NCBI GenBank assembly: GCA_002049495.1
Contig: LLYS01000001.1
Location: forward strand, 248,001 to 312,000
Length of the DNA: 64,000 nucleotides
Origin: Epsilonproteobacteria bacterium tcs-49
GTDB lineage: Bacteria; Campylobacterota; Campylobacteria; Campylobacterales; Sulfurovaceae
Direction of reading: 5' to 3'
This document shows, piece by piece, positions 9,302-21,052 of this stretch. Position 1 is the first letter of the stretch. Each line of letters starts with the position of its first letter. A program made the position numbers and the translations under genes. Below the pieces are notes generated by a model. The model did not search any database and was not told the DNA's origin. It was given only the letters and a program-made list of their open reading frames with translations.

Positions 9302-11770
9302 ATGGCACTACCCGGCAACAACGTTTTGATTCTCAGCAATATACTTTTCATAAGCGCAAAAGCACAGACAACCCAAAAGATCGCAGGGGTCTTTTTAAAG
9401 CGCTACTGCAAAAATATCCTCACCGCTGCAAGCGCACAGGAAGCCCTGGAACTTTTGCAAAGCAAACAGATCGATATCGTTATCTGCGATATCAAACTCG
9501 GCGACGGCTGCGGCATAGAGATGCTGCAAAAAGCAAAACGCTTCAACCCCGATACGATCGATATCCTCTTAATGGACAACCTCACCCCCGAACTTTCCAA
9601 AAAAGCTACGGCGATACAGCCCTTTGGCATCTTTGAACGCCCCATTAAGAGCAGCGCCTTTTTAAACAGGATCATCGAGGCCGACAGGGAGATCGCCGCA
9701 AAAACCACCAGACGCTATATGGAAAAGGAGCGCATCCTCAATGAGATTTTCACCAACCAAAACGACAACATCAACGAATACCTCAAGCAGATCGAGCAAC
9801 CCGCCGCATACTTTACGCAAAAAGGCAAACTCCAAGCATTTAACGACCTCTTTTCCAACCTTTTCACAGATGCGACCACCCTGGAAAATTCCTCGATCAC
9901 GGAGCTTCTTCGCGACGAAAACGCGGAACCGGTAACCTTGGAGGATTTAAAAAACCGCCTGCTTGAAAGCGCTACTATCAAAGATGTCCCCGATTCCATT
10001 TACAGTATCAAGATCAAACCGATCGAGTTTGGATTCAATATCAGCTACATCCTCTACCTCGATATCAAGTGCGATCTTGTACCAAAGGTACAAAAACCCA
10101 AGATTCTGCTGGTCGAAGACTCCCCCGTCGCACGAAAGATCGTCAAAAGAGAACTCTCCCCCGAAGCCAACGGCTACGAGTACAAGGAGGCCAAAAGCGC
10201 CGAAGAGGGGTTGGAGATTTTAAAACACTACCTGCCCTGCATCATTATCGCCGATCTGGTTCTTCCCAAAATGAGCGGGGTCAGTATGATCGAAAAGATC
10301 AAAAACGACCCGGAGCTCTCCGATATCCCCATCATCGTCATGAGCGAACTGGACAATATGGAGGTCAATACGAAGCTTATCCGCCTGGGGGTAACCTCCT
10401 TTGTGCAAAAACCCTTTTCAAAAGGAGCTCTGCTACACCGCATCGACGCCATACGCAAAGAGAGCAAACCCTGCCTGGATGTGGAGACCAAGCGGGTGGT
10501 CAATACCCTAAGCCTGTTTGAAAACAGCAGCGGCACCTGGCAGGTGCTTAACTCCCTCTGCGCCTCCTTGCTGCACTTTTTCAAATCCGACGATATCGAC
10601 ACGGCGTACGGGTACTACTCTTTGGGGCTGCTTGCGGCGGCACACCACGGCGAGTCCACACTGCAAAACGTCCTCAAACTTGCCCGCTCCTTCAAACTCG
10701 GCAAAGAGTTTTTGGAGTTTCTTGAAGCGCTGAAAAACCCCGTTTCCACCACCGAACAGATCTTTGCTTCGGTATGGAAGGAGTTTTTAGAATCCAAAGG
10801 GATCGAATCCGCAGAGATCAAGATCAACAACTCTACTATCAAAAAACAGCTCGACAGCTTCATCGAAAGAAACCGCCTACAGTTTAACAACGGCAGCGCC
10901 GCCCAACAGATCGTATACCACTACGGAGCGAAACTCGAGGAGCTTGTTGAGGATATGGCGCTGCGGCAGGAGTTTATCCGTTTGATAGAAACGGTGCTGC
11001 ACCACCAGCTCGTCCACTCCCACGGAGGGACGTGCGAACTGCACGAAGAGCTTCCCTCCCCACGCTTTCTTCTCACACCAAAAACATCTTCTCCCCATGC
11101 CCCTGAACAGCTTCTGGAAACGCTGCGGGCGCAGGATTTTTCAAAGCTGCAGCTTACGGTTGAAACCTATGAGGAGCAAAATGCCCTGATGGTCACCGCC
11201 GCTACACACCAGCCCCAAAAGCAGCAACCTGAACCGGAGGAGCCGGCATTTATGGATTTTTCCTTTGAGGAGGAAGCGGCGCAACAGGATCCCCAAAGCG
11301 AAAAGATCAGTGCCACGGACTTTATGGAGCAAACTGAGATCGATCCCGAGGATATAGAATCTTTGGAGTATATGGAAAATGACCTCTATGACTGCATCAC
11401 CGAATTGACCTACTCCGATTCCCAAAATGAAAAGCTCAGTGAAGCGGGGGAACTGTTTCGTAAATATGGAACGACGATCATCTACCTGCGCGAATTCAAC
11501 ACCATCTCCCAGGCACTGACGGGTTTGGCGACACAGTTTATGGATACAGACCTGGGCAACATCGATCCCGCTTTGGCACGGATGCTGCCCAATATCTTAG
11601 AAAATCTGGTTAATGATTTGCAAAACTGGAGAGAGAGCATCTTTGTCTACCATGAAGCGGATGATATCCACTTTCTGGACTCTTCCATCACCAACAACTG
11701 CGAACAGTGCAAAAGTTTCCTGACCCCCAAACAGGCGCAGGAGCAAAACGATGCGGATATCTTCTTTTAG
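9302..11770 (+). CDS. Large double-receiver signalling protein with uncharacterised C-terminal module
   Basis: 822 residues, no membrane segment. Domain order: receiver 1 (about 7-125, acceptor in IVICDIKLGDG), a PAS-like region (about 150-255), receiver 2 (about 262-385, KILLVEDSPVARKI, acceptor in IIIADLVLPKMSG, Lys in SFVQKPFSKG), an all-helical region (about 395-590), an acidic Gln/Glu-rich linker (about 630-690), and a compact C-terminal helical module (about 700-800). It ends DADIFF. I do not recognise an output domain of known activity. Its location, convergent with cheB (4-base overlap) and under the shared promoter element, suggests a phospho-relay or scaffold role in chemotaxis. Confidence 0.75.
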   Translation: MALPGNNVLILSNILFISAKAQTTQKIAGVFLKRYCKNILTAASAQEALELLQSKQIDIVICDIKLGDGCGIEMLQKAKRFNPDTIDILLMDNLTPELSKKATAIQPFGIFERPIKSSAFLNRIIEADREIAAKTTRRYMEKERILNEIFTNQNDNINEYLKQIEQPAAYFTQKGKLQAFNDLFSNLFTDATTLENSSITELLRDENAEPVTLEDLKNRLLESATIKDVPDSIYSIKIKPIEFGFNISYILYLDIKCDLVPKVQKPKILLVEDSPVARKIVKRELSPEANGYEYKEAKSAEEGLEILKHYLPCIIIADLVLPKMSGVSMIEKIKNDPELSDIPIIVMSELDNMEVNTKLIRLGVTSFVQKPFSKGALLHRIDAIRKESKPCLDVETKRVVNTLSLFENSSGTWQVLNSLCASLLHFFKSDDIDTAYGYYSLGLLAAAHHGESTLQNVLKLARSFKLGKEFLEFLEALKNPVSTTEQIFASVWKEFLESKGIESAEIKINNSTIKKQLDSFIERNRLQFNNGSAAQQIVYHYGAKLEELVEDMALRQEFIRLIETVLHHQLVHSHGGTCELHEELPSPRFLLTPKTSSPHAPEQLLETLRAQDFSKLQLTVETYEEQNALMVTAATHQPQKQQPEPEEPAFMDFSFEEEAAQQDPQSEKISATDFMEQTEIDPEDIESLEYMENDLYDCITELTYSDSQNEKLSEAGELFRKYGTTIIYLREFNTISQALTGLATQFMDTDLGNIDPALARMLPNILENLVNDLQNWRESIFVYHEADDIHFLDSSITNNCEQCKSFLTPKQAQEQNDADIFF

Positions 11771-12819
11771 CCCTGCTCTCTGATCGCTTCGGCGATCTCT
11801 TTTATAGTACACATCCGGCTTACGGCGCCGGTCTCAAGTGCTCTTTTGGGCATCCCGTATACGACGCAGCTGCTTTTCTCCTGCCCCAGCGTCACCGCCC
11901 CGTTGTCTCTGAGCTCCTTCAAGCCTATAATGCCGTCATCGCCCATCCCCGTTAAAATAATCCCCATCGCTTTTGCTCCGACGCTGTTGTTGACGCTTCG
12001 AAAAAGGATATCTACGCTGGGACGGTGCATACTTACCTTCACTTCGGAACTGATGCAAACAAAGAGTTTTCCCTCACGTTTATGGATGATCATATGTTTA
12101 TCCCCCGGAGCAAGATATGCCGTCGCCGGTTGCAGCTGCTCCCCGTCTTCAGCTTGTTTTACCCGCATCGAGGCGACCCCGTTCAAGCGCTGGGCGAAGC
12201 TGTTGGAAAAGCCGTAGGGGATATGCTGCGCGATCACGATAGGTGTTTTCACCCTGCCAATTTGAGAAAATATTTTCATCAGGGTTTCGATCCCGCCCGT
12301 CGAGGAGCCTATGGCGATAAGCTTTTGTGCTCCGCCGACCGCCGGAGAGGAGGGCAAAACCGCATCGGGATGGTTACGGCTGTGCCGACGCGCCGCCTCG
12401 GGTTTTTGTACCGGAGGCTTTTTACGTTGCTTATAGCGCTTCAGTAAAAATTCATAACGCAAAAACGTGTCTTTCAAACGCAGATAAAACTCCCCGTGAC
12501 TCTCTTTGGGCTCGGGTTTAGGAATAAAGCCGACCGCCCCGTCGTCAAACACGTCTTTACTTCGCGAAACATCGGTGGAGATCACGATCACGGGCATGGG
12601 GTGCAGCCGCATCAGGTTTTTCAAAAAAGCCACCCCGTCCATCTTGGGCATATTCACATCCAGCGTCACGAGATCGGGTTCATGCAACTTTATCAAATCC
12701 CTGGCCTCAAAGGCGTCCCTTGCCTTTGCCACGACGTTAAACCCCTCTATCTTCTCGATCATGTCGGTAAGGAAACTGCGCATAAACGAGGAATCGTCCA
12801 CTACGATAACGGTATACAA
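11767..12819 (-). CDS. cheB: Chemotaxis methylesterase/glutamine deamidase CheB
   Basis: 350 residues: receiver domain (1-120, D54 in VTLDVNMPK) and C-terminal methylesterase (about 165-348). Catalytic residues visible are Ser173 in IAIGSSTGG, His199 in AQHIPYG and the Asp in GMGDDG. It removes methyl groups from chemoreceptors and is activated by CheA phosphorylation. CheB of Helicobacter and Campylobacter relatives often lacks the receiver; this one has it. Last gene of the che operon. Confidence 0.95.
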   Translation of the reverse strand: MYTVIVVDDSSFMRSFLTDMIEKIEGFNVVAKARDAFEARDLIKLHEPDLVTLDVNMPKMDGVAFLKNLMRLHPMPVIVISTDVSRSKDVFDDGAVGFIPKPEPKESHGEFYLRLKDTFLRYEFLLKRYKQRKKPPVQKPEAARRHSRNHPDAVLPSSPAVGGAQKLIAIGSSTGGIETLMKIFSQIGRVKTPIVIAQHIPYGFSNSFAQRLNGVASMRVKQAEDGEQLQPATAYLAPGDKHMIIHKREGKLFVCISSEVKVSMHRPSVDILFRSVNNSVGAKAMGIILTGMGDDGIIGLKELRDNGAVTLGQEKSSCVVYGMPKRALETGAVSRMCTIKEIAEAIREQG

Positions 12820-12828
12820 ACTCTTCTC

Positions 12829-13497
12829 CTAAAACAGCGTAATATCGCAGCTTTGCGTCTGCGCGCTTTTCTTTTGGATCTGCTTTTGATAGCGTTTCTC
12901 CTCCTGCAGCAGGTGCTCGTCTCGCATCCTTGAACCGATCTTGCGGATATAGGTTTGGAAGTTGTGGATCAGCAGCACTTCCCGCCCATGCTCTCCAAGC
13001 GTATTTTCCGCCGTGATCCTGATATTTTCGCTTTTGCAAAACTCCCTGGCGAAATTGACGTTTTTCAAGCCGGTATTGCTGGAAACACTGTGCAGCACAT
13101 TGGCTCCGCCGGCGATCTTGGCGACGACGTGTTCTTTTTTCACTCCCAGCTTGAGCATCTCGTTAAACATACTTTCTATGGAGTAAAGCCCGAAACGGTA
13201 GCAATCGGTCTTGCTCGAACTTGCCGGCAATACGAAATGGTTCATCGCCTTGATCTTCGTTTTACCGTCGTACAGCATCAGCGCTACGCATGATCCCAGA
13301 ATCGTACTCAGCGCGACATGGGAACTGTCCCTCGTGATAGCAAACTCCCCGGCAACGATGGGGTAGGTTTTATACCCGTTGACGATCTTGGATCGGGGGA
13401 CCTCCTTGATACGCTCGACCCCCTGTCGTTTCCCCCCTTTAAAATCACGGCATCGGCCTTTGTTTGACAAAGATGTTTTGTCCCAGGTTCTGTACAT
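12829..13497 (-). CDS. cheD: Chemoreceptor glutamine deamidase CheD
   Basis: Conserved CheD core from about residue 40, with the catalytic Cys in TILGSCVALMLYD, His in MNHFVLP and a later SSNTG stretch; it deamidates receptor glutamines. The start is uncertain. The ATG at 13497 lies 50 bases inside cheR, a TTG at 13470 is an alternative, and no ATG, GTG or TTG occurs between the cheR stop and the core. The protein has an unusual charged C-terminal extension of about 60 residues, ending DITLF. That tail is much like the end of the CheZ-like protein at 17714 (EFTLF). Confidence 0.9.
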   Translation of the reverse strand: MYRTWDKTSLSNKGRCRDFKGGKRQGVERIKEVPRSKIVNGYKTYPIVAGEFAITRDSSHVALSTILGSCVALMLYDGKTKIKAMNHFVLPASSSKTDCYRFGLYSIESMFNEMLKLGVKKEHVVAKIAGGANVLHSVSSNTGLKNVNFAREFCKSENIRITAENTLGEHGREVLLIHNFQTYIRKIGSRMRDEHLLQEEKRYQKQIQKKSAQTQSCDITLF

Positions 13498-14287
13498 AGT
13501 TGCTCAAATTCAACGGGGATTCCGAATGTCCGAGATAGAGCGTGCCGCCGGGTTTGAGATGGGAAAAAAGGCGTTTAAGGATCTTTTGCTGGTCCGGGAT
13601 TTCAAAATAGATCAAAACGTTTCGGCAAAAGATCACGTCAAACTCCTCCTTGCCAAAGGGATAAGCCGTATCAAAAAGGTTCATCTGCATAAACTCCATC
13701 TGCTGCTTCAACCCCTCCTTTGCTTTGATCAAAAACTCCTCCTTCTGATCATCCAAAAGACGCCTTTTGAAATATTTCGTGGGATTGATCCACGCGGGAA
13801 AGGGGGTATTATCGGGGGAGAAGCTATATATCCCCTCCTGAGCGCGCCGCAACACGTTGGTATCGATATCGCTGGAGACGATCCTGTATTGCAGGTGCGC
13901 CTGCTTGGCCGATGCTTTGGACTCGGCGCAGGTCATGGCGATGGAATAGGGTTCCTCCCCCGTAGAACTTGCCGAACAATAGATTTGAACGCTGCCGCTT
14001 CGGGAAGCCAAGCCGGGTAAAACGCGATTTCTCAAATCCTCGAAATGGTGCCCTTCGCGAAAAAAATGGGTTTTATTGGTCGTAAAGGTATTGATAAAGA
14101 TCTCTTTGAACGTATCGTTTTTGAGTTTACGGGTCAAATCCTCCAGGCTTTCGATCTCGCTGTATGTTTGAAACAGTTTGTTCAGCCTGTTTTTAATCAT
14201 CATATCCTTTTTATCCCCCAGGGTAATCCCCGTAGAGGCATAGACCAACTCCCGGATTTTTTTCAACTCCCTGTTTCCGATCTGCAT
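13445..14287 (-). CDS. cheR: Chemoreceptor methyltransferase CheR
   Basis: 280 residues. N-terminal helical domain (1-75) and S-adenosylmethionine-binding domain (about 85-275) with SGSVQIYCSASSTGEEPYSIAM, VSSDIDTNVLRRA, DVIFCRNVLIYF and GGTLYLGHSES. Methylates receptor glutamates. A receptor in this cluster (18725-21052) ends in a QWESF pentapeptide, a tether used by some CheR proteins, so a pentapeptide-binding insert in the C-terminal domain is worth looking for. Overlaps cheD. Confidence 0.95.
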   Translation of the reverse strand: MQIGNRELKKIRELVYASTGITLGDKKDMMIKNRLNKLFQTYSEIESLEDLTRKLKNDTFKEIFINTFTTNKTHFFREGHHFEDLRNRVLPGLASRSGSVQIYCSASSTGEEPYSIAMTCAESKASAKQAHLQYRIVSSDIDTNVLRRAQEGIYSFSPDNTPFPAWINPTKYFKRRLLDDQKEEFLIKAKEGLKQQMEFMQMNLFDTAYPFGKEEFDVIFCRNVLIYFEIPDQQKILKRLFSHLKPGGTLYLGHSESPLNLSNYVQNLGQNIFVKQRPMP

Positions 14288-14295
14288 GAAAACCC

Positions 14296-14754
14296 CTAAC
14301 CGTTTTGACAGGTGGAGTTTTCCAGATCCGCACGGTCCAACACACGCTCCATATCCATAATCACCACCATTTCACTATCCTTTTTCAACAAGCCCTTGAT
14401 ATATTTACTCTCGATGGAGGTGCCGATCTCGGGAGCGGGACTGAGATCTTCAAAACTGATCTCTTCCATATCTTTGACCGCATCAACGATCACCCCGATC
14501 ATCCTCTCATCATCGGTACGCACGGCCATCACGACGGACCTGGCATCATATTCGGGATCGCAGGCGGTATGGAATCGTAGCCGCAGATCGATCACGGGGA
14601 CCACGTCACCGCGCAGGTTGATCACCCCTTTGACCCACTTTTCCGTATTGGGTAGTGCGGTGATATGCGGGGCGATAACGATCTCTCGGATCTTTTCGGT
14701 CTCCACCGCAAAGTTTTCGCTCCCCAGTAAAAACTTGATTATCTCTTGTCGCAT
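14296..14754 (-). CDS. cheW: Chemotaxis coupling protein CheW (second copy)
   Basis: 152 residues. ATG 14754 chosen because AAGGAGA lies just upstream; the longer frame to 14775 overlaps the previous cheW. A CheW fold with NTEKWVKGVINLRGDVVPVIDLRLRF, the typical receptor/CheA contact strand, and GVIVDAVKDM. Scaffolds CheA with receptors. It is clearly diverged from the cheW just upstream, so the two may sit in different positions of the array or serve different receptors. Confidence 0.93.
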   Translation of the reverse strand: MRQEIIKFLLGSENFAVETEKIREIVIAPHITALPNTEKWVKGVINLRGDVVPVIDLRLRFHTACDPEYDARSVVMAVRTDDERMIGVIVDAVKDMEEISFEDLSPAPEIGTSIESKYIKGLLKKDSEMVVIMDMERVLDRADLENSTCQNG

Positions 14755-14767
14755 CTTCTCTCCTTGG

Positions 14768-15208
14768 CTACACACTGATCATATCCGCATCCACGAGTCT
14801 GTCCATCTGTAAAATGATCATCATGCCGCTCTCTTTTCGGATATAGCCTTTTAAAAACTTCGCATCGATATAATCGCTGCTGGAAGCGGGAAGGATATGG
14901 TCCATCTCCACCGTTTCGATATCTTTGACTTCATCAACGACAAACCCCACCAGCTTATCCTGCTCGTTTTTGACGCTTACGATCACCGTACGATCGTTGT
15001 ACTCGGGCTCTTTTTCAAAGCCAAAACGCACCCGAAGATCGATGACGGGCATATCTTCGCCGCGGATATCCAGCACCCCTTTAAGCCAGGGGGCGGAGTC
15101 GGGAATCTGCGTAATATTGTTGTACGTTACGATCTCTCGGACACGGTTGATATTGATGCCGTAGTTCTGTTCGCCAAGGCGCACCGTTAAAAACATATTG
15201 TTACTCAT
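14768..15208 (-). CDS. cheW: Chemotaxis coupling protein CheW (first copy)
   Basis: 146 residues. The ATG at 15208 overlaps the TGA of cheA (TGATG), giving translational coupling. CheW fold with SAPWLKGVLDIRGEDMPVIDLRVRF and GFVVDEVKDIE. Role as CheA-receptor adaptor is standard for the family. Two adjacent, unequal cheW genes follow one cheA. Confidence 0.94.
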   Translation of the reverse strand: MSNNMFLTVRLGEQNYGININRVREIVTYNNITQIPDSAPWLKGVLDIRGEDMPVIDLRVRFGFEKEPEYNDRTVIVSVKNEQDKLVGFVVDEVKDIETVEMDHILPASSSDYIDAKFLKGYIRKESGMMIILQMDRLVDADMISV

Positions 15209-17262
15209 CACGCCACCTCTTTATCCAGTTTATACTGATCGACGATCCCGATGATATCCAGGATCAACCCGATACTGCCGTCTTCCCGTACGGTTGCGCC
15301 GCTGACGCCTTTGATATTTTTGTAATTTTTATCCAAAGGCTTGATCACCACCTGCTGCTGGTTTAAAAACTCATCCACAAACAGTGCGATCTTGCTATCT
15401 CCGGCTTTGACCACGATCAGCATCCCCTCAAGCAGCTTTTCATGACTGGGAGCGACGTTGAATATCTTGTGCAGTCGGACGATGGGGATAAACTCATCAC
15501 GCAGCATCAACAGATCTTCGCTGCCGTCGCCGACGACTTTGAGCATCTGTTTTGTCGGCTGCAGGGATTCGACGATGGAAGCCAGCGGCAGGATAAAGCG
15601 CGTCTGTCCCACCGCCACGTTGAGCCCGTCCATAATCGCAAGGGTCAGGGGCAAAACGATATTGATCGTCGTCCCCATGCCCGGTTCGGTATGGATGTTG
15701 ACCACGCCGCCGAGTTTGTTGATATTGCTTTTGACCACGTCCATCCCTACGCCGCGTCCGGAAAGATCGCTGACTTCCTCGGCGGTAGAAAGCCCCGCTT
15801 CAAAGATCAAAGCCGCCTTTTGATCATTGGTCATATCCTCCGCCTCTTCGACGCTGATTACGCCGTTATCGATCGCTTTTTGCGTCACCTTTTCCACATT
15901 CACCCCCGCGCCGTCGTCGCTGATTGAGATGATGATCTGCCCGTTGCCCTGTTCCGCTTGCATACGCACCGTTCCCACTTCCGGTTTGCCCGCACTCTGC
16001 CGCTCCTGCATCGTTTCAAGACCGTGATCCATGGAGTTTCGCACAATATGCATCAGCGGATCGATGATCCCCTCGGTCATCGCCTTATCGATCTCCACCG
16101 AACCGCCCGTGGTTTTAAACTCCACCTTTTTGCCCAGCTTTTTGGAGACGTCACGGATCAGCTTGGGGAATTTGGCGTAGATATCCTCCATAGGTACCAT
16201 GCGAACGGCCAAAACAGACTCCTGCAGCTCCCTGATATCGTTTTCGATCTTGTTCAAACGTTCCAGCATCTGCTCTTTGAGCTTTTGTTCTTCAAGCGAG
16301 TGGGCGACGGGATAGAGCATCGAACTGGAGATAACCAGTTCGCCGATGTTGTTCATCAAGCGATCCACCCGCCCCAGGTCCACCCGGATGGAACTGTTCT
16401 TTTTGGATTTTGGCTTTTTACTTTTGCTTCCGGAACTCTTTGGTTTTGGCGCGGACAAACCTTTTGAAGAGGGCGATTTTTGCTCTTGGTTTTTTTTCTT
16501 TTCGGGGATATCAGGCTCGTCAAAGAAGCCAAATGCTTCCCCCTCCGCGCTATTAAGCCTTTGCTCATCTAAAGCTTCGGCGAAGAAACCAAAAGGTTCG
16601 CTTTGCTCAAAAGCCTCCTCCATCTTCGGATCATCAAAAAACCCAAACGCTTCGCCGTCACCGGAGCCTTTGGGTTTGCTGTCATTGTTATAAAAACCGT
16701 ACTCCCCCTCGCACTGCTTGAAAAAACCAAACGCTTCCTCCTCGCTGCTTTCTTCAGAGGCATCAAAAAAGCCGAAGCTCTCATGGTTTTTCTCCTCCTT
16801 CAAAGGCTGCGAATCGTTTTCGAAGAAGCCATAATTTTCCTGCTGCTCTACAACCGCTTCGCCGCCCTTTTTATAAGCTTTGATCTGTTCCAAAAGCGGA
16901 GCGGTCAACCCTTCATAATGCTCCCGTGTCAGGGGTTCGTCGACCTCCGTCTCCAAAATCTCCTGCATCGCGTCGTTGGCGGACATAAAAAGATCGGCCA
17001 TCGAAGCATGATAACCGATCTGGTCGTTTCTGATCTCATCAAGAAAGCTCTCCACCTCATGGGTAAAACTTTGCAGCTGCTCCAACTCTACCGAACCCGC
17101 ACCGCCTTTTATGGTGTGCATAGCGCGAAAAAGGGCGTTGAGTTCCTCGGCTTCGAGAGTATGAGCCTGCTCCGCTTCTAAAAGGATATTTTCGATATCG
17201 GTAAAAAGCTCCTCCGCTTCTTCGAGGAACATCTCCCGGTATTTTTCCAGATCAAAGGACAT
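15208..17262 (-). CDS. cheA: Chemotaxis histidine kinase CheA with repeated [FY]GF[FY] linker
   Basis: 684 residues. P1 phosphotransfer domain (1-130, H49 in RAMHTIKGG), long linker (131-290), P3 dimerisation (about 291-360), P4 ATPase (HIVRNSMDHG, SDDGAGV, GRGVGMDVV), P5 CheW-like (about 545-680). There is no recognisable P2 domain. In its place the linker has seven short motifs: NYGFF 143, SFGFF 162, AFGFF 177, EYGFY 187, AFGFF 205, PFGFF 223 and AFGFF 243, in acidic low-complexity context, then a Lys/Ser-rich stretch. No C-terminal receiver is fused, unlike CheA of Helicobacter and Campylobacter. Phosphorylates CheY and CheB. Confidence 0.96.
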   Translation of the reverse strand: MSFDLEKYREMFLEEAEELFTDIENILLEAEQAHTLEAEELNALFRAMHTIKGGAGSVELEQLQSFTHEVESFLDEIRNDQIGYHASMADLFMSANDAMQEILETEVDEPLTREHYEGLTAPLLEQIKAYKKGGEAVVEQQENYGFFENDSQPLKEEKNHESFGFFDASEESSEEEAFGFFKQCEGEYGFYNNDSKPKGSGDGEAFGFFDDPKMEEAFEQSEPFGFFAEALDEQRLNSAEGEAFGFFDEPDIPEKKKNQEQKSPSSKGLSAPKPKSSGSKSKKPKSKKNSSIRVDLGRVDRLMNNIGELVISSSMLYPVAHSLEEQKLKEQMLERLNKIENDIRELQESVLAVRMVPMEDIYAKFPKLIRDVSKKLGKKVEFKTTGGSVEIDKAMTEGIIDPLMHIVRNSMDHGLETMQERQSAGKPEVGTVRMQAEQGNGQIIISISDDGAGVNVEKVTQKAIDNGVISVEEAEDMTNDQKAALIFEAGLSTAEEVSDLSGRGVGMDVVKSNINKLGGVVNIHTEPGMGTTINIVLPLTLAIMDGLNVAVGQTRFILPLASIVESLQPTKQMLKVVGDGSEDLLMLRDEFIPIVRLHKIFNVAPSHEKLLEGMLIVVKAGDSKIALFVDEFLNQQQVVIKPLDKNYKNIKGVSGATVREDGSIGLILDIIGIVDQYKLDKEVA

Positions 17263-17269
17263 GCAGCGA

Positions 17270-17638
17270 CTACTTCAATACGGTATTGACGGCTTTTAAC
17301 AGTTGCTCAGGCACAAACGGTTTGACGATCCATCCCGTCGCCCCGGACTCCTTGCCCCTGCTTTTCATATCCGCGCTGTTTTCGGTCGTCAGGATCAGGA
17401 TCGGCTTAGCTTTATACGCATCGATCATCCGCAGTGACTGTACCAGTTCAAACCCGTTCATATTGGGCATGTTGATATCGGTGATCACAAGATCAAACTC
17501 CTGCTCTTTGGCACGATCCAAACCGTCCGCACCGTCGATTGCTTCGACCACGTCGGCGTATCCTCCGTCGTTGAGGGCATATTTGACCATATCGCGCAAC
17601 ATGTTGGAATCATCTACGATTAAAATCTTTTTTGACAT
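17270..17638 (-). CDS. cheY: Chemotaxis response regulator CheY
   Basis: 122 residues, single receiver domain: acidic pair in ILIVDDSNM, D54 in DLVITDINMPNMNG, Thr84/85 in LILTTENS and K106 in WIVKPF. Phosphorylated by CheA; controls flagellar motor switching. It starts with an AGGAG ribosome site. A TATAAT on the same strand (17659-17664) and a strong palindrome lie between it and the upstream CheZ-like gene, so it may have an extra promoter. Confidence 0.96.
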   Translation of the reverse strand: MSKKILIVDDSNMLRDMVKYALNDGGYADVVEAIDGADGLDRAKEQEFDLVITDINMPNMNGFELVQSLRMIDAYKAKPILILTTENSADMKSRGKESGATGWIVKPFVPEQLLKAVNTVLK

Positions 17639-17713: not shown

Positions 17714-18586
17714 TTAAAAAAGGGTAAACTCCTCCTCTTCGGATTCCGTGTTCTCACACCCTTTCATATCCACCTCTTTGTCCATGAGCATATCGCGCTG
17801 CTCCTGGATGCTATAACACTCCATCACCCGTGCTTTTATCTCCTGCTCTTTTGTCGCATCAAGCGTCCCGTCCATCTCAAACTCCCTGGACAAAACACAG
17901 ACGATCCCGTCAATCATCTGCGAAATACGATCTTCACACTGTAAAATCCCCACAAAGCCATGCATATTTTTGATGATATCGCCTGTTCTGGCAAGAATAT
18001 CTTCGGTTCGATCGATGCTCTGGGCCAAAATGAGATCCTCTTTGCTTTGATCCTGCAGTTTTGCGATAGTGTGCCTGGTTGCTTCTAAGTCGGCGTAGAC
18101 GCTGCGCATCCGCTCGATCTCACTTTTAAATATTCCCCGGATCTCGGAGGTACTGTGCTGCATCTTTGTTTTGATCATCTGCAAATTCTGTTCATTGAGC
18201 CGGGAGAGATACCCCTGACTTGCCAACTGTGCCCCGGCACGTCGCAATAAAGCGATACGATCCATCTCCCGACGGCTTTGCCGGCATACGTCGTACAGGT
18301 TCTCCCCCAGGCTCTGTTCCTGCGCACTGACCCAGGCGTCAAACAGCGGCGGTTCCTCCTGGGTATTGGTTCCCTCTTCGACCATGCAGATCACAAAAGG
18401 CAGGACCACGCCCTCACCTTCCAACGATTCAAGCCGGTGTTTGCACCCTTCTGCACACAATAAAAAATCATATGCTCCATACCCGCTTGTTTGCAGTTGT
18501 TCAAAGCTGCCCATCTCCAGCGAGATATGCTCGGTATCGACTTCGGGTACATCCACGATCGCGATCCCTTTAAAGTGTTGCTGCAT
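17714..18586 (-). CDS. CheZ-like phosphatase candidate with N-terminal pseudo-receiver
   Basis: 290 residues, no membrane segment. Residues 1-90 have receiver-like beta/alpha spacing without an acceptor Asp. Residues 100-265 are long helices containing GILQCEDRISQMIDGIV. Its D219xxxQ223 matches the DxxxQ active-site pattern of CheZ, which dephosphorylates CheY. The protein ends in an acidic tail EEEEFTLF, placed like the CheY-binding C-terminal peptide of CheZ. It is the first gene of the che operon, directly before cheY, which supports the idea. The overall sequence is not an obvious CheZ, so the call is inference. Confidence 0.6.
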   Translation of the reverse strand: MQQHFKGIAIVDVPEVDTEHISLEMGSFEQLQTSGYGAYDFLLCAEGCKHRLESLEGEGVVLPFVICMVEEGTNTQEEPPLFDAWVSAQEQSLGENLYDVCRQSRREMDRIALLRRAGAQLASQGYLSRLNEQNLQMIKTKMQHSTSEIRGIFKSEIERMRSVYADLEATRHTIAKLQDQSKEDLILAQSIDRTEDILARTGDIIKNMHGFVGILQCEDRISQMIDGIVCVLSREFEMDGTLDATKEQEIKARVMECYSIQEQRDMLMDKEVDMKGCENTESEEEEFTLF

Positions 18587-18724: not shown

Positions 18725-21052
18725 TTAAAAACTCTCCCACTGCTGGTCTTGCGTTTCACTCTCACCGCTTGGCTTTGCCGGTTGCGCCGACTGCCGGGCG
18801 GTTGTGTGCAGCTGCGAGGTGTGGTCTTGCTGCACCGTTTCCTGCTCCGCTTTGGCTTTGCAGTTTTGCAGTTTTGCCTCATCAAGGTATTCAAAAACCC
18901 TGAAAGTATCTTGCTCGATCTCTTTGGAAATTGCGAAAAGTTCATGGTTTTTGCCTCCTGAAAAGTAGGAATCAACGTAGTTTTGTACCCCTTTGTGCAC
19001 ATGGGCATGCACGTCAAGGAAGCTGTTCCAGTAGGGAGCGTCGGTAAAGTCGTCTCCCTGATGGTTATCGATCCAGCGTCCCAGGTTGCAGCCGTGGTGA
19101 TCGGTCACCGTGAATTTGGAAGTGGCATCGATCAGTTTTTTATACGCCCCCTCTTTAAACTTCACGTGATCGAGCTTCAACCCGTTGGCGTCAAAGATCA
19201 TATCGATATCGCACACCCGTTTTTCACTGGCCGGATCCACGCTGGTTTTTTCAGAGATCACATGCAGGTTATCCGCCACCTGTGAAAGGTTTTTACTCAT
19301 CTGACTGACCGTCTGCGCGGTTTTGGTGTTTTGCTGGGTCATGGTATCAAGCTGCGCGAGCGCATCGTTGATCTGTTCGATTCCGCTCATCTGCTCTTTG
19401 GAAGATTCGGTCACGTCATTGACCATCTCCTGGGTCTGTTTGATCTTTTCGTTGATCTCGTTAAAGCCTTCAAGCATCTGCGTGGCAACGTCTTGCCCCT
19501 GACTGGTCTTTTCCTGCGCCTCGTTGACGATCTGCTGGATCTCCTGGGCCGCGTTGGCACTTCTGCTGGCCAGGTTACGCACCTCCTGCGCAACCACGGC
19601 GAAACCTTTACCCGCTTCCCCGGCGTTGGCCGCTTCCACGGCGGCGTTAAGACTGAGGATATTGGTTTGAAAAGCGATGGAATCGATCACGTTGACCGCT
19701 TCCCCGATCTTTTTTGCCGCCTCATTGATACTCTCCATAGAACTTACCGTCTGGTTTGCCAACTCCTTGCCCTCTATGGTAGAGTTCATCGCCTCATTGG
19801 CGTATCCCGCCATGGAGATCGCTTTGTCGGTGTTGTTTTGTACGTTGCCGCTGATCTCCTCCATAGAAGCGCTCGTCCCCTCCAGGCTCGCCGCTTGCTG
19901 GTTTGTCGCCGTGGAAAGCTCCTGCGAAACGTCCAGAAGTTTCTGCGCGCCCTGTTTTACCTGTTCGCCGCGGTATTTAATGGTTGCGAAAACATCGCTG
20001 TTTCCCTGCCCCAGTACGGTCAGTGCCGCTACAAAGGAGCCCAGGTTCCCCTGTGCCGAAGCGTTGGATTTGTACGCGTAATCCCCTACGACGTAGTGGT
20101 TGACCAGTTCGATAGCGTCTTGGAAACTACCGTAGGTGGAACTTAGCATCTCATTGATCAAATCCTTGACCGCTTTGAGCTCTTCCGACGCCGGTTCGGC
20201 ATCGATCGTATACATAAAAAAGCCCTCTTTTGCCTGCTCTACGACACGTGCGATTTCGCCCACGGCACGGTTATCCGCTTCGATGGAGCGCTTTGTGGCT
20301 TCAATATTTTCATTGAGCAGCTTCGCCATCTGCCCAAACTCATCTTCGCTGTTTATCTCGATCAATTCGCTGGTTTCGCTTTTTTTACCGACAAAAGCGA
20401 AGAATCCGTCCAACCCGTGCTGCACCGCCTGCAAGCTTTTGATGATATTTGTAAAGAGGGTATAAAGCATTCCCGAAAGGATCAACACGATCGCCAAAGC
20501 GATGGAAACCCCCATAAGAAGTAAAGAGTTGATATCGGAGTAAAACTGCTGCTGCAAACGGGCCACTTCGCGATCGCAGTGGGCCTTCCACTCAAGCAGC
20601 GCCCCCTTGATCGCCCGCCACTTTTTGGTACTGTTGTTGATCACCTCCAAAGTCAGCGATTGGTTCTCAAGATGGGACAGCACCTCTGCGATATCATCTC
20701 TATACGCTTTTGCGGCTTTTGCCGCACCGTATTTTTCATACCCCGGTGAAACTTTTTTGGTCGCTGCCGAACCGAGATCTTTCAAAAGCGCTTCCAGTTT
20801 TTGCGCCGACTTGTTGGCGTTTTGCTCCGCTTTGATACTTGTAGCGTCGATTGCGACCTTACGCACCGCATTGGAAAACTGCAACCCCTCGGCAAGGGTT
20901 TTTAAGACGTTTTCCCGCACTTTTGCCACCTTGGAAGCGTGTGTATACTCCTGTTGCAACGTTGATACCTTGACCCATAAAAACAAAACCAGGCCTATAA
21001 GCAATACGGCACTTACCGCCCCGGTTAAGAGCGCTTTTTTTGATATTGACAT
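18725..21052 (-). CDS. Methyl-accepting chemotaxis protein with C-terminal CZB domain and CheR-tether tail
   Basis: 775 residues. Transmembrane helix 1 (about 8-27), helical periplasmic domain (30-175), transmembrane helix 2 (about 175-200), a long HAMP-containing region, then a signalling domain with tip [23 protein letters not shown] split across 460-500. After about residue 620 comes a chemoreceptor zinc-binding (CZB) domain: [21 protein letters not shown] and HAHVHKG supply the His and Cys ligands. A 60-residue flexible linker ends in QWESF (771-775), like the NWETF/NWESF pentapeptide that recruits CheR and CheB. CZB domains have been linked to zinc or hypochlorite sensing. The gene has its own promoter. 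Confidence 0.93.

Follow-up and report, generated by a model that had tools for sequence, protein, structure and literature searches.

A CheA with seven aromatic motifs and no P2 domain

How does a CheA histidine kinase that lacks the P2 domain find its response regulators? It has been reported that 52% of CheAs have no P2 (PMC10782961), and one such CheA is encoded in the DNA analyzed here, a stretch of 64,000 nucleotides from Epsilonproteobacteria bacterium tcs-49, which is called the window below. All features that are given with window coordinates lie on its reverse strand. The cheA gene (15208..17262) encodes a protein of 684 amino acids that consists of P1 (Hpt), a linker, P3, P4 and P5, and that has neither a P2 nor a receiver domain. 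The histidine kinase set is complete in one chain: Hpt (residues 8-90), H-kinase_dim (residues 290-352), HATPase_c and CheW were all detected above the Pfam cut-off, and Pfam detected nothing else. The linker comprises residues 131-290 (16393..16872). It has an acidic part, which bears the motifs and extends to about residue 252, and a Lys/Ser-rich tail.

A preliminary description of this DNA had reported seven [FY]GF[FY] motifs between P1 and P3, and all seven were found as described. They are YGFF at residue 144 (16822..16833), FGFF at residues 163 (16765..16776) and 178 (16720..16731), YGFY at residue 188 (16690..16701), and again FGFF at residues 206 (16636..16647), 224 (16582..16593) and 244 (16522..16533). 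The array spans window positions 16833-16522, and the start-to-start spacings are 19, 15, 10, 18, 18 and 20 residues, in agreement with the described intervals of 10-20 residues. The description that the motifs are usually followed by D, E or N applied to five of the seven, but not to the two that are followed by K and A. When residues 131-290 were shuffled 20,000 times, the pattern occurred 0.032 times on average and at most twice, compared to seven times in CheA. Nearly all aromatic residues of the linker (21 of 22) are inside the motifs, and 31 acidic versus 7 basic residues are present in the 112 residues from 141 to 252.

A recent tandem duplication of the motif DNA was ruled out, because the codon combinations differ from copy to copy, no tandem array was detected, and the 21-nt direct repeats centered on the motifs are 67-81% alike. 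Thus, the constraint on the motif acts at the level of the peptide and does not reflect a recent expansion of the DNA.

The absence of the usual P2 had also been noted, and this was verified. Pfam found no P2 in the window CheA or in the 11 aligned relatives. In addition, the linkers of the motif-bearing clade were aligned with P2 domains using hhalign, which gave probabilities of 0.2-0.5%, versus 98.3% for the positive control, Campylobacterota P2 (including that of L004, another CheA of this genome) against proteobacterial P2. A hidden P2 was thus ruled out. In an AlphaFold2 model of the whole CheA the pLDDT was about 24-34 over residues 141-290, and no confident fold was predicted for the linker. 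The alignment comprised 12 sequences and the CheW domain failed likewise, and, therefore, little weight is put on this model as evidence for disorder. The position of the motifs between P1 and P3 is that of the expected docking element for CheY and CheB in the CheAs of E. coli, T. maritima and B. subtilis, but there it is one folded domain, whereas the window CheA has only repeated motifs of four residues. The P2-bearing CheAs, including L004, do not contain the motif.

Conservation of the motif within one CheA clade

A kinase-core tree of 70 CheAs showed that the motif carriers form one clade (support 100/99), in which the motif was present in 36 of 36 members. Outside of this clade, a single match at a chance-like level was found in one of 34 CheAs (L003), and with this exception the motif was absent from F3, P2-bearing and other CheA classes. 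Throughout the clade the motif has the form [FY]-x-[FL]-[FY] plus D or E and occurs in one to seven copies, the window CheA having the highest number. In orthologues from Arcobacteraceae and from other members of the Campylobacterota, which are about 45-53% identical, the linker is of the same kind, with [DE]-x-[FY]-G-[FI]-[FY]-[DE]-[DE] in one to five copies, and F-x-L-F-[DST] is present in one to three copies in the CheAs of the sister group (GFELFDE, GFALFDPAQIEAAQ, DGFMLFTPEMIE). The last motif of the window CheA, FGFFD, is nearly invariant in orthologues: all 21 [FY]G-type linkers that were compared have F246, F247 and D248, while the surroundings drift. Whole-genome DNA pattern searches for the motif yielded mostly chance coding matches and were left out of the results.

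Judged from these alignments, the linker motif is under selection as a peptide, because it is conserved across a deep clade, its last copy is nearly invariant, and the codons differ from copy to copy. The same three observations speak against the view that the motifs have no function and are the product of duplications in a drifting linker of low complexity; copy numbers from one to seven would suit such a drift, but it is regarded as extremely unlikely. Most likely, docking motifs for CheY took the place of P2 in a single CheA clade and were expanded to seven in the window CheA.

A comparison of the repeat number across orthologues had been suggested together with the idea of multivalent docking. 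The motif itself was kept. Multivalent docking is a possible role, but because relatives have one to five copies, seven copies are an extreme and not a requirement. This also bears on the view that the motifs are stickers, which would associate among themselves or with the kinase core and lead to clustering or autoregulation of CheA, like FG repeats. Aromatic motifs at every 10-20 residues of an acidic chain indeed have a sticker-and-spacer look. However, many relatives conserve just one or two copies, which suits a binding site better than multivalent cohesion, and the confidence of the motifs was not raised in the whole-CheA model, making a sticker function very unlikely.

Matching C-terminal tails of other chemotaxis proteins

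The motif recurs at the C-termini of further proteins of the operon. The CheZ-like protein (17714..18586) has a D-x3-Q motif (LQCEDRISQM) and ends with EEEEFTLF. It had no Pfam or NCBIfam match above the cut-off, and no relative was found in the PDB. Its relatives have the D-x3-Q motif, which resembles that of CheZ, in common and end, after a diverged stretch, with DIDDFTLF (L036) and DIDDFILF (L101). E. coli CheZ, read from its locus, has QDLTGQ and ends with DDLLDSLGF, and this C-terminal tail has been reported as crystallized with CheY. The tails are alike in being short acidic peptides with an aromatic/hydrophobic end. FTLF of the window protein shares the pattern of the CheA motif, in contrast to L-G-F of E. 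coli CheZ versus F-x-[FL]-F in the window, and the copies in CheA are internal and repeated.

CheD (12829..13497) ends with CDITLF. In the Arcobacter-type loci that were read to the end CheD terminates with MEIELF, and two more relatives have QITLF and GVTLF. The short CheDs that these genomes encode in other che clusters do not have the tail motif. When 429 distinct ORFs from the loci were screened for the tail pattern acidic-[FIV]-x-[LF]-F, 20 matched, 19 of which are chemotaxis proteins.

A Vibrio operon belonging to this class encodes a CheD that ends with DDDVELF and an McpA-like receptor that ends with EVELF, although the CheA of this operon retains P2, and thus the motif need not concern the interaction of CheA with CheY. 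The striking conservation of the McpA-like receptor tail has been published as unexplained (PMC7184735). CheD tails of the types VELF, MELF, IEFF or VTLF were also found in Azospirillum, Cupriavidus, Comamonadaceae, Burkholderia, Paroceanicella, Novosphingobium, Sinorhizobium and Tritonibacter (L154, L158-L166). [VIM]-x-[LF]-F appears to be a general C-terminal peptide of CheD in many proteobacteria, with a distribution wider than this class. The CheD of Burkholderia glumae has two copies of the tail motif. A tail-like end, ENDDDEDDIDFF, was also seen in a protein with a receiver domain that is encoded immediately upstream of the second CheA in the genome analyzed here (L131, L014; near 81.8 kb).

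The operon and its CheY

The gene order of the operon is Aer2-like receptor, CheZ-like, CheY, CheA, two CheW, CheR, CheD and CheB. The receptor (18725..21052) has Aer2 as its best NCBIfam match, below the cut-off of that family, and carries the CheR-tether pentapeptide QWESF at its C-terminus. CheY is encoded at 17270..17638, followed by the two CheW (14768..15211 and 14296..14775), CheR (13445..14287) and CheB, a receiver plus methylesterase (11767..12819), at the positions given. The order agrees with the published stage-1 (early) F7 order, except that a CheZ-like gene is present and that the receptor is placed differently. By its gene set, its Aer2-like receptor and the QWESF tail, the system is assigned to class F7. 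The orthologous Arcobacter operon cheYARDB has been classed as F7 (PMC9321776). The genome has four CheAs. In 59 other sampled members of the family there were at most weak matches to the window CheA, confined to the kinase domain; within its family, this is probably the only lineage that kept or acquired chemotaxis.

The residues that have been reported for FliM binding are replaced in 28 of 28 CheYs of these loci (W58 to V or I, K91 mostly to S, K119 to A, Y106 to W). A PDB search revealed 4h60 and 4hnr, both Vibrio cholerae CheY4, as the nearest solved structures of the window CheY. CheY4 also has Trp at position 106 and has been reported not to bind FliM; CheZ and FliM use a common face of CheY (PMC3774744). 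If the motif binds the CheY of the operon, the motor output would have to come from another CheY, because the operon CheY is devoid of the FliM-binding residues. The FliM-type CheY-binding helix, L-S-x-[ED]-[ED]-[IVL]-D-x-L-L, had no match in the CheA linkers of the motif clade.

Candidate partners of the motif

Short docking sites that replace P2 are the best-supported reading, because the motif is conserved in the clade, restricted to it, and recurs on the C-termini of the CheZ-like protein and CheD. The preliminary description had proposed multivalent docking of CheY, CheB or a double-receiver protein; this proposal is partly supported, with CheY favored and CheB disfavored. CheY is the established substrate of CheA and CheZ, and it is favored because one reader must explain CheA, the CheZ-like protein and CheD together. 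Further evidence came from the sister operons (L167-L173), in which F-x-L-F is kept in CheA, and in which no match to CheB, CheR or CheD was found within the stretches read, while most of them encode receiver proteins (CheY, CheW-REC, beta-propeller-REC, REC-EAL). Some of these genomes carry CheD at another locus. CheB, CheR and CheD are thus disfavored as general reader, because the motif is kept without them in the stretches read.

Another view is that the motifs are internal pentapeptides for the tethering of CheR or CheB, comparable to NWETF, which would bring one of these enzymes to CheA. AFGFF, NYGFF and EYGFY agree with the consensus -x-[HFYW]-x(2)-[HFYW] (PMC7184735) by inspection, as do the other [FY]GF[FY] copies, but this consensus is loose. 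Both CheB and CheR are encoded in the operon, and CheA must phosphorylate CheB. However, in addition to the sister operons without CheB and CheR in the stretches read, the window receptor has a tether of its own, the CheD tails ITLF, IELF and VELF do not conform to the consensus, and in McpA a Val in place of the aromatic residue has been reported to block CheR binding (PMC7184735). The known tethers (NWETF, GWEEF) are also short aromatic motifs on a flexible chain, but they are present as a single copy of the type W-x-x-F at the receptor C-terminus, in contrast to several copies in the internal linker of CheA. Taken together, tethering of CheR or CheB is unlikely.

CheW and the CheA core are constant across the motif-bearing operons, and, therefore, a component of the array (CheW, P5 of CheA or a ParP-like CheW homologue) could also be bound, which would hold CheA, CheD and CheZ in the array. 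A precedent exists in Vibrio, where CheA-LID, an extra protein-binding element of some CheAs, is bound by the CheW-like domain of ParP (PMC5706961). But no ParC/ParP-type gene was found among the operon genes examined, and the tail of the CheZ-like phosphatase fits CheY better. Binding to an array component is thus quite unlikely.

It is predicted, with somewhat better than even confidence, that the CheA linker is a string of short CheY docking motifs in place of P2. From the observed motifs and tails we infer the following scheme. The linker would be an unfolded tether with repeated [FY]-x-[FL]-[FY] motifs in an acidic setting. Each motif would bind the CheY of its own class, probably on the alpha4-beta5-alpha5 face, which is the CheZ/FliM face in E. 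coli. CheY held in this way would stay near the P1 histidine, and phosphotransfer would be faster. The tails of the CheZ-like protein (FTLF) and CheD (ITLF) would be competitors of the motifs for their site on CheY, so that kinase, phosphatase and adaptation enzyme would share one CheY, and seven copies may confer higher avidity. A natural in-frame read-through of CheY and CheA (L023, stop read as Ser) was also modeled with AlphaFold2, and the mean pLDDT was 40-45 for the motifs compared to 27-35 beyond them, on a shallow alignment; at these values no docking was predicted with confidence.

A possible class-wide docking code

The recurrence of the motif leads to a more general proposal, for which the chances are considered to be slightly below even. 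According to this proposal, acidic-[FIVY]-x-[LF]-F would be a docking code of the whole class, present in CheA linkers and in the tails of CheD, CheZ-like and McpA-like proteins. It would be read by an F7-type receiver, characterized by W at position 106 and the loss of the FliM-binding residues, and it would be insulated from a second code, the LSxEExD helix, which FliM, F3-type CheZ and F3 CheAY appear to use. If this is true, two peptide alphabets would separate two CheY circuits within the same cell, and a peptide code would have taken over from a folded domain in the window CheA.

Docking elements of CheA and CheY-binding peptides are already known as kinds. Repeated linear motifs in CheA that are shared with the tails of CheD, CheZ-like and McpA-like proteins were not found in the literature searched, nor was a report on FGFF in connection with CheA or on short linear motifs in CheA, in a search that covered few subscription journals. 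Repeated linear motifs instead of a folded docking domain are thus a concrete candidate answer to the question how CheAs without P2 find response regulators, and the motif ties the CheA linker to the tails of CheD, CheZ-like and McpA-like proteins and to a CheY type that does not bind FliM (PMC3774744, PMC9321776).

Further linkers and fusion proteins

The CheAY proteins of Helicobacter and Campylobacter (F3) are similar to the window CheA in having a flexible linker and no P2, but they have a fused receiver, and most of those read contain a helix motif that resembles the N-terminus of FliM. It was seen in eight F3-type CheAY linkers (L001, L076, L077, L079, L080, L091, L092, L094; e.g., MSEEEVEAEIE and LSPEELDAVLE) and occurs twice in L076, L077 and L080, the regular expression having been designed after the motif was seen. 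The FliM of the window genome begins with MADILSQEEIDQLL, and its F3-type CheZ (L142) with MTQEELDALM.

Another type of linker was observed in the CheAs of family f18 (L078, L083-L086, L115, L117, L120), in which P2 is replaced by a conserved module some 60 residues long (DVDPxIQELIKKYPDKSFxExLDELILLPPEERDMDLIxKLDELI). The CheA of a plasmid of Sphingobium sp. V4 (L127) has two FGF elements (EFGFTP, DPFGFEPV) in the linker before P2. The CheA of one relative (L175) is split into frames of 147 and 478 amino acids, due to a frameshift or a sequencing error. Lastly, four sister operons encode fusions of a WD40-like beta-propeller with a C-terminal receiver, an unusual type of response regulator (L167:2437-3771, L169:11215-12450, L170:1264-2610, L173:9956-11290).
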